From Desulfobacterales bacterium (GTDB lineage Bacteria > Desulfobacterota > Desulfobacteria > Desulfobacterales > JAFDCJ01): 5,971 nucleotides of DNA. The position numbers and the translations under genes are program-made. The stretch covers positions 1,432,101 to 1,438,071 of the forward strand of contig CP070771.1 in the NCBI GenBank assembly GCA_020345785.1. The letters run 5' to 3'. The notes beneath the pieces are model-generated. The model was not told where the DNA came from and searched no databases. It saw only the letters and a list, made by a program, of their open reading frames with translations. Of the stretch, positions 819 to 4,593 are shown one piece after another (the first letter of the stretch is position 1; each line of letters starts with the position of its first letter).

Positions 819-1955
819 ATGCCAGCCGAAATCAATCACGAAGAATATGTTTCCCGGCAAAACAGAGCCCAGAAATTAATGCAGGCAGCGGACATTCAGG
901 CATTATTGGTCACGGATCCCACCAACCTGTTTTATTTTACCGGAGCGTCGTATTTTGGCGAAATGTCCTACCCTAGACCGGCAGCACTGCTTATTCCCCG
1001 GGAAAAAGAAGCGATGCTGCTGACCCATGATTTTCATTTGGCCGTTCCCTGGCAGGGCGATGTCCGCGAATACCCGAAAGTCGGCGAACTGCCGGTGGAT
1101 ATGTTAAAGGACATGTTTTCCGATGCCGGGTGTGAGAGCGGAAGGATCGGAATGGAGTTGGGTCGCGAGCAGAGACTGGGCATGTCGTATTCGGATTTTC
1201 GGAAAGTCCGGGCCGCCCTTCCCGAAATAATCCCTGTTGATGCCGCCGGCATGATCTGGGACACCAGGATGCAGAAATCGGATGCGGAAATCGCCATTAT
1301 TCAGCAAGCCTGCAAAATTCATGATGATGTTTTCAAAAAGGTTTTCGATGCCGTAAAAGCCGGTATGACGACCCGCGAGATTGAACAGCTGTTTCGGATG
1401 GCAATCGCTGAGAGTGAATCCGATTCCGGCTGGGCAGTGGTCTGTGTGGGTGATTTTGATGAACACCAGGCCTCCGGGCCGACGCATCCGGATAAAGTGT
1501 TGCAAGCTGATGCGCTGCTCTGGGTGGACTTGGGCATCGTTCTGCGAGGTTATCATACGGACTACTGCCGCGGCCTGGTGGTGGGTGCGTTATCCGAAAC
1601 CCGCAAAGAGCTATGGGACAAGGTTCAGCAGGTCCTTCTGGCCGGCATTGAGAGCGTCAAAGCCGGCATCCCTGTATCCGCTGTCTATCAGGCCCAGCTC
1701 AGCAAGGCCGAAGAGCTGGGTCTCGATATGCAAACCTGGAAGGCACGCCGGTTTGGACATGGCAGTGGGCTGCACACGACGGAACCGCCCTATATCTCCG
1801 GGGATGATCATACGATTTTAAAACAGGGCGTGATTCTGCACATCGAACCCGGCTGTATCCAAAAGGACGGTATCTATGTGCGGGAAGAACAGGTTCTCGT
1901 AACGGAAACCGGCTGCAAGGTTCTTTCCAATGCTCCCTGGCAATTGTCAGCATAG
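819..1955 (+). CDS. M24 family metallopeptidase (creatinase / Xaa-Pro aminopeptidase type)
   Basis: This 378-residue cytosolic protein has the two-domain layout of the family: a creatinase-like N-terminal domain (about residues 10-145, with the LLVTDPTNLFYFTG strand typical of it) and a pita-bread M24 domain (about 155-370). The five metal ligands of the dinuclear centre are all visible: Asp237 (WVDLG), Asp248 (HTDYCRG), His314 (FGHGSG), Glu343 (HIEPG) and Glu357 (VREEQVLVTE). An active metal hydrolase is therefore likely. Relatives include Xaa-Pro peptidases, creatinase and DMSP lyase DddP. The sequence does not say which substrate is used, so the name should stay at family level. The start is the first ATG of the frame, with only a weak purine-rich leader (AAGGCGAAG) before it. 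The stop is TAG. The methyltransferase gene follows in the same direction after 101 bp, and co-transcription is possible. A small TTCAGT/ACTGAA hairpin at 1978-1997 in the gap lacks a T run and is not a convincing terminator. Confidence 0.9.
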   Translation: MPAEINHEEYVSRQNRAQKLMQAADIQALLVTDPTNLFYFTGASYFGEMSYPRPAALLIPREKEAMLLTHDFHLAVPWQGDVREYPKVGELPVDMLKDMFSDAGCESGRIGMELGREQRLGMSYSDFRKVRAALPEIIPVDAAGMIWDTRMQKSDAEIAIIQQACKIHDDVFKKVFDAVKAGMTTREIEQLFRMAIAESESDSGWAVVCVGDFDEHQASGPTHPDKVLQADALLWVDLGIVLRGYHTDYCRGLVVGALSETRKELWDKVQQVLLAGIESVKAGIPVSAVYQAQLSKAEELGLDMQTWKARRFGHGSGLHTTEPPYISGDDHTILKQGVILHIEPGCIQKDGIYVREEQVLVTETGCKVLSNAPWQLSA

Positions 1956-2056: not shown

Positions 2057-3040
2057 GTGACGCTTACAAACCATCAATCGCCGATCGATGCCAATTCCGA
2101 AAACGCCCAGCAGTGGCGAACGGTTGTTACCTGCTATTCGGCCGTTGACAGGTTCTTCCCGGCCTGCGGGTTGTTCGACCTGACGGAGGGGATTTATCAC
2201 GGTAATCCCAAGACACCTTATGAACAGGCCGAGGCTAATCAGCTCGACTACCTGTTGGATCAGATCCGGTGCGAACCAGGCTGTCGTGTGCTGGACCTCG
2301 GCTGCGGGTACGGAACGCTCTTGGAGCGAATCCGGCAGCGCGGCGCCATAGGGATCGGAAACACCATTTCGCCCGAACAGCTGAAGTACTGCCGCGAAAA
2401 GAACCTCGATGTTTTTCTGATAGACTACCGCGCGATACCAGGCGAATGGGAAAGGACATTCGACGGGGTCATTGCCAACGGATCGATTGAACACTTCGTC
2501 CAACCGACCGATGCCGCTGCCGGAAAGCAGGACGACATCTATCGTCACCTGTTCGCCAAAGTCCACCGCCAGATTGATCCCAATTCTAACATGCGCCGCT
2601 TTGCGACGACGACGGTTCACTTCGTTCGAAAGCCATCAAATCCACTTGACGTATTTAAAAACCCCCTAACCTTTCGTTGGGGTTCGGATAATTTTCATTG
2701 GGCGGTTCTGGAACGCGGCTGGGGCGGCTATTACCCGGAGATCGGTCAATTGCGCCGCTGTGCGGATGGATATTTTGACCTGATCGATGAAGATGACGGG
2801 ACCGAGGATTATCGTTTTACCTCCGCCGAATGGCTGCGGCGGACACGCCGGGCGTTGTTATCCCTCAAGGTGGTAAAGATTGCGTACCGGTCTTTGCCGG
2901 TTTTGGTGCGATCCCCGGGACAGTTCATGACACTGCTCCTGAATCTTTTAAGCAGTGAGTCATGGAATTGGCAATTTCGCCCGCCAAACCCACCGACACG
3001 ACTGCTGCGACAAACATGGGCGTATTTAGATCGGCACTGA
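2057..3040 (+). CDS. SAM-dependent methyltransferase, cyclopropane-fatty-acid-synthase-like
   Basis: This 327-residue class I methyltransferase carries motif I as VLDLGCGYG (residues 78-86), the SAM-binding glycine loop. Family hallmarks of the CFA/mycolic-acid cyclopropane synthase group surround it: an upstream GLFDLTEGIYHGN segment ending in YEQAEANQ, then TISPEQL (103-109), IDYRAIP (122-128) and an acidic NGSIEHF (141-147). The C-terminal half (about 180-327) is less typical, with aromatic patches such as ERGWGGYYPEIG and a basic stretch RRTRRALLSLKVVK. It could dictate an unusual substrate or membrane contact. The product may modify lipid acyl chains or a small molecule; the substrate cannot be read from the sequence. 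The start is GTG, chosen because GGAGAGG lies at 2046-2052, 4 nt upstream. The ATG at 2041 is out of frame. The stop is TGA, so UGA is used as a terminator in this genome. A GC-rich hairpin follows 52 bp downstream. Confidence 0.85.
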   Translation: MTLTNHQSPIDANSENAQQWRTVVTCYSAVDRFFPACGLFDLTEGIYHGNPKTPYEQAEANQLDYLLDQIRCEPGCRVLDLGCGYGTLLERIRQRGAIGIGNTISPEQLKYCREKNLDVFLIDYRAIPGEWERTFDGVIANGSIEHFVQPTDAAAGKQDDIYRHLFAKVHRQIDPNSNMRRFATTTVHFVRKPSNPLDVFKNPLTFRWGSDNFHWAVLERGWGGYYPEIGQLRRCADGYFDLIDEDDGTEDYRFTSAEWLRRTRRALLSLKVVKIAYRSLPVLVRSPGQFMTLLLNLLSSESWNWQFRPPNPPTRLLRQTWAYLDRH

Positions 3041-3864: not shown

Positions 3865-4563
3865 TTATTGCTCAGGCGGCTGCCAAAAAGAACCCAACCC
3901 TTTCAACACCCCAATTAATTCCATCAGGTACTCCTGCATACGGGAAACGTAATCCGCGTCCAACCGCCTGGTAAAAAAATTGCCGGAAAAAAGTCCGACA
4001 ATATCAGACAGTTTATTGATTCCCTCTTCAGTATCAGCCTTAAAACCGCTCCAATTTCGAATATGTTCTTCCGACCGGAAGAGATTCATGGTACTTCAGG
4101 CATAAGGCAGGTCGTTGAACCAACGCCTGAACGGAACAGAGGTGTATCCCATTATACTTTCCGGTTCAGCGTTCAGAACTTTTCCATCCTTCATTTCCAC
4201 TCTGATTGGAGAACCGCAATCCAGACAGGGAGCATGAATTTGTACTGTTTTCCCCGGAAATAGCCAGCTGACCGCCAGCGATTCGAACCCTCATTGGCCG
4301 AACCACTTCTGTTGGCCGTCGATAGTGATGCGGTATTGTGTGGGAAGATTGCTAAAAGGAGGAAACGAGCCAATGTAGTCGGTATTGGGAAACAACCAGG
4401 CAGGAAAGCCTGGCGAATAAAGCTCATGCAACACTTTGCGAGCTTGCTCCACCGGCACATCCATTTTGGCTGCAATTTCTGTGTAGTGAGGTGCTTGACC
4501 GGTTTCCATCATGCGTTTCATGATGATTTGAAAAATTATGTCCAATTGATTTGGTTCACTCAT
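3865..4563 (-). CDS. Alkylmercury lyase (MerB)-like protein with two predicted selenocysteines
   Basis: One frame runs from ATG (4561-4563) to TAA (3865-3867), 232 residues, interrupted only by TGA at 4291-4293 (residue 91) and 4096-4098 (residue 156). AAGGAGG at 4568-4574, 4 nt upstream, fixes the start. Residues about 5-50 form a helical, winged-helix-like N-terminal domain (PHYTEIAAKMDVPVEQARKV). The rest follows the MerB catalytic domain: KWFGQ-U91-GFESLAVSWLFP matches the YAWCALDxLxFP region around catalytic Cys96 and Asp99, with Glu94 in the Asp99 place. PYA-U156-STMNLFRSEEH matches the FCxHVHFFASED region around Cys159. The Sec-to-Sec interval is 65 residues, against 63 in MerB. Both TGAs are followed by SECIS-like stem-loops. 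MerB breaks carbon-mercury bonds by thiol attack and proton transfer; two selenols would give far tighter mercury binding, but substrate and activity are inferred. Residues Cys113 and Cys116 (CLDC) are an additional thiol pair. The alternative is a pseudogene with two nonsense mutations, which is unlikely given their exact positions. UGA elsewhere in the window is an ordinary stop. Confidence 0.85.
4067..4082 (-). promoter_or_regulatory. SECIS-like stem-loop for the second UGA (Sec156)
   Basis: The mRNA reads UCUUCC-GGUC-GGAAGA, a perfect 6-bp stem with a GGUC loop placed 20-23 nt after the UGA at 4098-4096. Bacterial SECIS elements sit just downstream of the UGA inside the coding region and present a G, often GGU, in the apical loop to SelB. 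In E. coli fdhF, recalled from memory, the GGUC is about 19-22 nt after the UGA. Geometry and loop sequence agree closely. Confidence 0.75.
4267..4279 (-). promoter_or_regulatory. SECIS-like stem-loop for the first UGA (Sec91)
   Basis: The mRNA reads GCUG-GCGGU-CAGC, a 4-bp stem with a 5-nt loop 16-20 nt after the UGA at 4293-4291. A GGUC run falls at 18-21 nt, nearly the same register as the second element. A lower stem may form between GAAU (nt 7-10) and AUUUC (nt 30-34) across an internal loop. It is weaker than the second hairpin on its own. Confidence 0.6.
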
Positions 4564-4593
4564 ATTGCCTCCTTTTTTTGACTGAATTCGCAA

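Follow-up and report, generated by a model that had tools for sequence, protein, structure and literature searches.

Two in-frame UGA codons at the catalytic cysteine positions of a MerB-like gene: a predicted double-selenocysteine protein family of Desulfobacterota

The organomercurial lyase MerB is recognised by four signature residues: C96, D99, C117 and C159 (PMC8261052; this and the other PMC articles cited here are drawn on in part). MerB-like proteins that contain selenocysteine (Sec) are also on record. SaoL has a single Sec, in a CU motif (PMC13188914), an "alkylmercury lyase MerB-like" protein is given as a selenoprotein (PMC9312934), and "MerB2" stands in a table that is apparently one of selenoproteins (PMC7435645). 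Bacterial proteins with two Sec residues are likewise known, such as a ferredoxin-thioredoxin reductase and an FmdB-type regulator; these resemble the present case in having more than one Sec, but belong to families other than MerB (PMC13188914). The gene of interest here lies in a 5,971-nucleotide stretch of a Desulfobacterales genome (contig CP070771.1; "the window" refers to this whole stretch). It encodes a MerB-like protein in which UGA codons occupy the places of both Cys96 and Cys159, and we predict that it is a double-Sec member of the MerB family.

The coding frame occupies window positions 3865..4563 on the reverse strand, and specifies 232 amino acids followed by a stop codon. It opens with an ATG (4561-4563), just downstream of an AGGAGG ribosome-binding site (4568..4573), and closes with a TAA (3865-3867). 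Exactly two stops interrupt it, at codons 91 (4291..4293) and 156 (4096..4098), and both are TGA. An earlier reading made from the sequence alone (the sequence-only reading) had proposed that two open reading frames (ORFs), 4291-4593 and 3865-4089, are parts of one gene split by TGAs; upon re-reading the frames, the two were found to share a single frame, with the offset and both TGAs as claimed.

Joined across the UGAs, the 232-residue frame matches the Pfam family MerB (PF03243) with 76.1 bits (gathering score 27), while neither the N-terminal nor the C-terminal piece matches PF03243 alone. The predicted structure of the readthrough translation is of high model confidence (predicted local distance difference test score, pLDDT, 93.5) and has the MerB fold; its top matches in the Protein Data Bank (PDB) are all MerB. 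Residue equivalences were taken from phmmer alignments to the PDB sequences. In these, codon 91 pairs with the Cys of the MerB C-A-L-D motif, and codon 156 with Cys159, the residue preceding S160 in the C160S mutant 3f2g, in agreement with the positions assigned to the two TGAs by the sequence-only reading. Codon 94 (4282..4284, reverse strand) encodes a Glu in the place of the motif's Asp, MerB Asp99, and this Glu is invariant in 30/30 loci. Equally invariant is Cys113-Leu-Asp-Cys116 (4216..4227, reverse strand; 30/30 loci), where Cys113 takes the place of MerB Cys117 and Cys116 is extra. Hence, among the four signature residues, Cys117 is present (as Cys113), Asp99 is replaced by Glu94, and Cys96 and Cys159 are both replaced by UGA; the two UGA sites would be chemically akin to the MerB cysteines if Sec is inserted.

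Compared with described MerB proteins (PF03243; plasmid R831b MerB and MerB2), the window protein thus differs in its Sec codons for both catalytic cysteines, in Glu for Asp99, in the additional Cys116, and in a C-terminal end that is ~25 residues longer. It also lies under the NCBIfam MerB cut-offs (NF009710, 37.5 of 193 bits; NF033555, 28.1 of 200 bits), and no mer gene was found adjoining it within the window. Its best NCBIfam match is SaoL (NF040728, of the SAO system), which is likewise MerB-like and a selenoprotein. The cut-off of that family is 140 bits, however, and the window protein reaches 45.6 (ten relatives, 32–53 bits); moreover, SaoL is described, in the part of its source drawn on here, with one Sec, whereas the window gene carries a pair of Sec codons at a distance of 65 codons.

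The double UGA is not peculiar to the window. A scan of species genomes yielded ten relatives, 61–84% identical and from deltaproteobacterial metagenome-assembled genomes (the nearest a Desulfosarcina), with TGA/TGA in 10/10. Among 395 genomes sampled from the phylum, 37 contain a match; 23 of these hold a frame whose sole stops are two TGAs (27 frames of this kind in total, 39–84% identical to the window protein). Of the remaining 14, two genomes have split copies, one has an N-terminal piece, and in 11 the match is an ordinary, stop-free MerB-like protein of 28–38% identity. A 389-genome sample of the class gave matches in 28 genomes: 24 with two TGAs (two of them counted with an extra TAA), and four partial with one TGA. 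The two samples overlap in some genomes, and duplicates were removed. In all, alignment at both sites covered 47 loci, the window among them, and three more were additionally read (L050, L063 and L064), giving 50 distinct, essentially full-length loci, the most distant 43% identical to the window protein. TGA stands at both sites in 50/50. Since this is so, chance is excluded, and the earlier argument that random nonsense mutations would hardly strike both catalytic positions holds.

Purifying selection is apparent on all parts of the frame. In the seven pairs computed, the nonsynonymous rate (dN) is well below the synonymous rate (dS) in all three segments that the UGAs delimit, with some dS values saturated; for the window and its relative L001, the three segments give dN of 0.077, 0.067 and 0.076 and dS of 0.78, 0.85 and 1.31. 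Seven further copies (L034, L035, L036 and L065–L068) are split, frameshifted or partial double-UGA genes from several genomes, reflecting decay or assembly error; their remaining sites are all TGA (91: 3/3; 156: 5/5), with neither site retained in L035. Such degraded relatives count in favour of a dead merB copy with two nonsense changes, or of sequencing errors. The intact loci speak firmly against that explanation: TGA/TGA in 50/50, dN far below dS in three segments, and frozen codons in the hairpins described below. A sequencing error cannot yield TGA at both sites in every one of 50 loci. We regard a pseudogene or an error as refuted by the conservation of both TGAs, and its probability as vanishingly small. 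Very likely, the window gene represents a MerB-like selenoprotein with two Sec residues that is found clade-wide in Desulfobacterota. Some genomes contain double-UGA paralogs (three copies in G093, two each in G087 and G010), 39–68% identical to the window protein.

Bacterial selenocysteine insertion sequence (SECIS) hairpins lie directly downstream of the UGA, and have a conserved loop G (PMC2398784). A predicted hairpin of this kind follows each UGA on the reverse strand: the first (4263..4279) has a 6-bp stem and a GGUCA loop starting 17 nt after UGA 91, and the second (4066..4083) a consensus stem of seven pairs and a GGUC loop starting 19 nt after UGA 156. We take the hairpin loop to resemble that of E. 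coli fdhF. Both predicted hairpins are present in 47/47 aligned loci with at most one stem pair missing; the consensus stems were taken from the alignments, and a free hairpin search favoured other, longer hairpins in some loci. The site-156 loop is GGTC in 47/47 loci, while the site-91 loop starts with GGT or AGT in 45/47 and with CGT in two. At site 156, 98.7% of cells are paired (44–63% when the stem is slid along the alignment), and 16 cells carry two-sided compensatory changes, from C-G to U-A and once from U-A to G-C (in L027, where both amino acids are altered too). The stem at site 91 is nearly invariant, with 99.3% of cells paired (12–60% when slid).

Codon choice was examined in two ways. 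Firstly, across 30 loci, synonymous codon use is about as expected at most conserved residues; the strongest departures fall at codons 94–98 and 162–165, together with 157–158 and 166, and further departures occur at 83, 114 and 115, the last being as strong as 94. The codon freeze is thus concentrated at the hairpins, and is not confined to them. The tripeptide F-R-S is encoded by TTC-CGG-TCG in 47/47 loci. Secondly, in 1000 sets of synonymous shuffles that kept the proteins unchanged and treated the loci as independent, the stems appeared in a mean of 27 and 25 of 47 loci (maxima 35 and 34), versus 47/47 observed at both sites. So high a null means that the encoded amino acids by themselves predispose to the stems. 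Four Cys-containing relatives (L037–L040) have Cys codons at both sites and, compared by eye, different codons at the would-be hairpins. Searched against Rfam at E values of up to 10, the window returned four matches, all sub-gathering and unrelated, with no SECIS family among them.

The machinery for Sec insertion is found in the relatives' genomes. SelB exceeds its cut-off in 9/10 of the nearest-relative genomes and tRNA-Sec is present in 8/10, with at least one of the two in each; in the tenth genome (G003), SelB is seen only as a short piece near a contig end. In the phylum sample, SelB occurs in 22 of the 23 double-UGA genomes, the 23rd (G019) having tRNA-Sec; with SelB in 353 of all 395 genomes, these counts are no test of association. 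In G002 (C22:173696-174945) and G008 (C152:7329-9351), a divergent tRNA-Sec (52 and 56 bits, respectively) adjoins a SelB frame, and another tRNA-Sec and SelB lie elsewhere in the same genome, an arrangement suggestive of two SelB and tRNA-Sec pairs in both.

Public protein sets treat the UGA positions differently: the entries P0002–P0121 either show Trp there, likely because short contigs were translated with genetic code 4, or stop at residue 155. The 120 listed protein relatives, the best of 271 found, comprise 51 with Trp at both positions (W/W), 61 with Cys91 that end just before residue 156, four with Cys at both, and four others. Since relatives' DNA has TGA, the printed W/W is best read as a gene caller's code-4 rendering of UGA. 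A true Trp at residues 91 and 156 would account for those 51 entries, but the DNA of 50 loci shows TGA and never TGG, Cys/Cys relatives exist, hairpins and SelB are present, and TGA is a true stop in the window, where the methyltransferase gene ends with it at 3038-3040. We have rejected this interpretation on the TGA codons of the 50 loci and the TGA stop in the window, leaving it next to no probability. Cys at both positions, which the sequence-only reading had expected among homologues, is seen in those 4/120 listed relatives and, at the DNA level, in 4/4 ordinary MerB-like loci read from the same phylum (L037–L040). With the Sec machinery present in relatives and sequencing error set aside, none of the three outcomes that reading had named as fatal to a double-Sec MerB-like enzyme was encountered, and its central proposal is supported.

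The listed relatives also bear on how the two sites have evolved. A tree was built from residues 1–155 with residue 91 masked, using 114 of 121 rows (seven rows with fewer than 140 residues before column 156 were omitted) and counting W/P and W/end entries with the double-UGA group. Double-UGA entries and those with Cys91 and a stop at 156 interleave: the former label requires 15 changes, at least 10 of them forced by well-supported branches, and the latter 16, at least 12 forced. Our reading of these protein sequences is that residue 91 may often have switched between Cys and Sec while residue 156 stayed Sec. The form with Cys91 and a stop at 156 comes from protein entries (61/120 listed) rather than DNA, and its absence among the Desulfobacterota DNA read is in tension with repeated switching. 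None of the 120 listed has Cys91 with Trp156, and double-UGA genes translated with the standard code give 90-residue products, too short to be candidates; because of these two gaps, the proportions among listed relatives are not natural frequencies.

The affinity of selenium for mercury far exceeds that of sulfur, and HgcA is the methylmercury-making protein. With HgcA called at E ≤ 1e-60, it is found in 116 of the 395 phylum genomes: 18 of the 23 double-UGA genomes (16 of these 18 above the curated cut-off; G067 and G087 below it) versus 98 of the 372 others (Fisher p = 8e-7, with no correction for kinship or genome size). HgcA is over the cut-off in seven of the ten genomes nearest to the window. 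MerA is over its cut-off in 0/10 of the same genomes (best 385 of 454 bits), in a search that is weak evidence, its cut-off having been reached in just 1/14 control genomes.

The surroundings of the gene are varied. In the window, its ordinary neighbours are an M24/creatinase-type peptidase (819-1955, forward strand), a CMAS-like methyltransferase (2057-3040, forward) and a LysM and amidase_2 protein (5813-4944, reverse); a 75-residue frame without a confident family match lies downstream on the same strand as the gene (3559-3332, reverse). A conserved operon was sought and did not emerge: among the ORFs of 11 loci (the window and L001–L010), no neighbour recurs in more than four. A large ORF of 820–865 residues is upstream in four loci (L006 and L008–L010), another neighbour family occurs in three (L001, L003 and L007), and others in two or three, mostly the close kin L008–L010. 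No Sao family is named among the main ORFs of the window, to which that scan was confined; the relatives' neighbours were compared mutually. A plasmid search returned nine records, 24–26% identical and MerB-type where annotated, and a scan of viral contigs with P0060 found no relative.

On balance, we think it probable, with some reserve, that this MerB-family gene, likely of Desulfobacterota, uses its UGA/UGA pair to make a predicted two-selenol enzyme that cleaves the carbon–mercury bond of methylmercury. SelB would bind each predicted hairpin and deliver Sec-tRNA at each UGA. As to substrate and catalysis, we infer the following from MerB chemistry. The selenolate at residue 91 would attack the metal of R-Hg+, Glu94, in the place of Asp99, would protonate the leaving carbon, and Hg(II) would end held between Sec91 and Sec156. 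We would guess that the clade's Cys113-x-x-Cys116 relays Hg(II) to small thiols or sulfide, emptying the tight diselenolate. Because MerA was not over the cut-off in the ten nearest genomes, the product may pass to sulfide or selenide instead of undergoing reduction.

Several observations weigh against this proposal. The curated MerB and SaoL cut-offs are missed by wide intervals, and the substrate may differ accordingly. No mer gene was found among the neighbours compared, and MerA is not over the cut-off in the nearest genomes. The association with HgcA takes no account of kinship or genome size, and the evidence for Sec machinery comes from genomes of relatives rather than from the window's own. 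Regarding the hairpins, there is no covariation at site 91, where the almost invariant stem makes covariation uninformative; in the window itself, the outermost pair of the site-156 stem is C-A, a mismatch; and the shuffle null already reaches 25–27 of 47 loci on average. Finally, two selenolates may hold Hg(II) too tightly for turnover.

A different role for the same fold would be that of a stoichiometric trap or metallochaperone that binds Hg(II) or another soft metal through its selenolates and CxxC, without lyase activity. The strength of selenium–metal binding, the missed MerB and SaoL cut-offs, the lack of an adjoining mer gene within the window and the MerA result are all in its favour. 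The four MerB signature positions are, however, filled by chemically similar residues (U91, E94, C113 and U156), and a pure trap has no need of the acid; we consider a trap unlikely, if worth keeping in mind. Somewhat less probable still is a MerB-like selenoenzyme acting on another organometal, such as organotin, organolead, organoarsenic or a metal–carbon cofactor species. SaoL, the best NCBIfam match, is reportedly the MerB-like organometallic lyase of the SAO system (the work is said to be that of Haft and Gwadz, 2023); its name, "organometallic lyase", leaves the substrate metal open, and sulfidic sediments are rich in organometals. Against this, the co-occurrence with HgcA, uncorrected for kinship as it is, points to mercury. 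A third alternative is that the UGAs serve mainly as a selenium-responsive switch, the 90-residue winged-helix piece made without selenium acting as a regulator. The same N-terminal part is present in canonical MerB (whose matches start at model residues 1–8), and constraint on the segments beyond the UGAs is similar, making a switch very improbable.

The sequence-only reading knew of no published description. That stands in part: no double-Sec MerB was found in the portions of the literature covered, which further included PMC5029168, PMC8318568, PMC12013277 and PMC12195606, with the primary SaoL paper (Haft and Gwadz 2023, J Bacteriol 205:e0025922) and Haft and Tolstoy 2025 outside that coverage. 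Single-Sec MerB-like selenoproteins (SaoL, "MerB2") are already present in reviews; as far as these sources go, only the single-Sec form has been described.

Two surveys of MerB require Cys at positions 96 and 159 (PMC8261052 and PMC9948709, in the parts drawn on). Because of this requirement, and because gene sets end at the UGA or print Trp there, such surveys would overlook the double-UGA clade. The wider proposal is that Desulfobacterota possess a clade-wide diselenol organomercury lyase, often in the same cells as HgcA, and that it is one end of a family in whose history the attacking residue has alternated between Cys and Sec at least 10 times while the second site is nearly always Sec; we put this forward tentatively, at slightly less than even confidence. 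If true, a single active site would hold two distinct Sec residues, with a dedicated hairpin for each, and the Cys/Sec switching family would be a natural series for what selenium adds to the breaking of carbon–metal bonds. Anaerobes of this phylum are the source of much natural methylmercury. If the phylum also has a two-selenol demethylase, and often in genomes with HgcA, mercury cycling would include a sink that has so far been overlooked.
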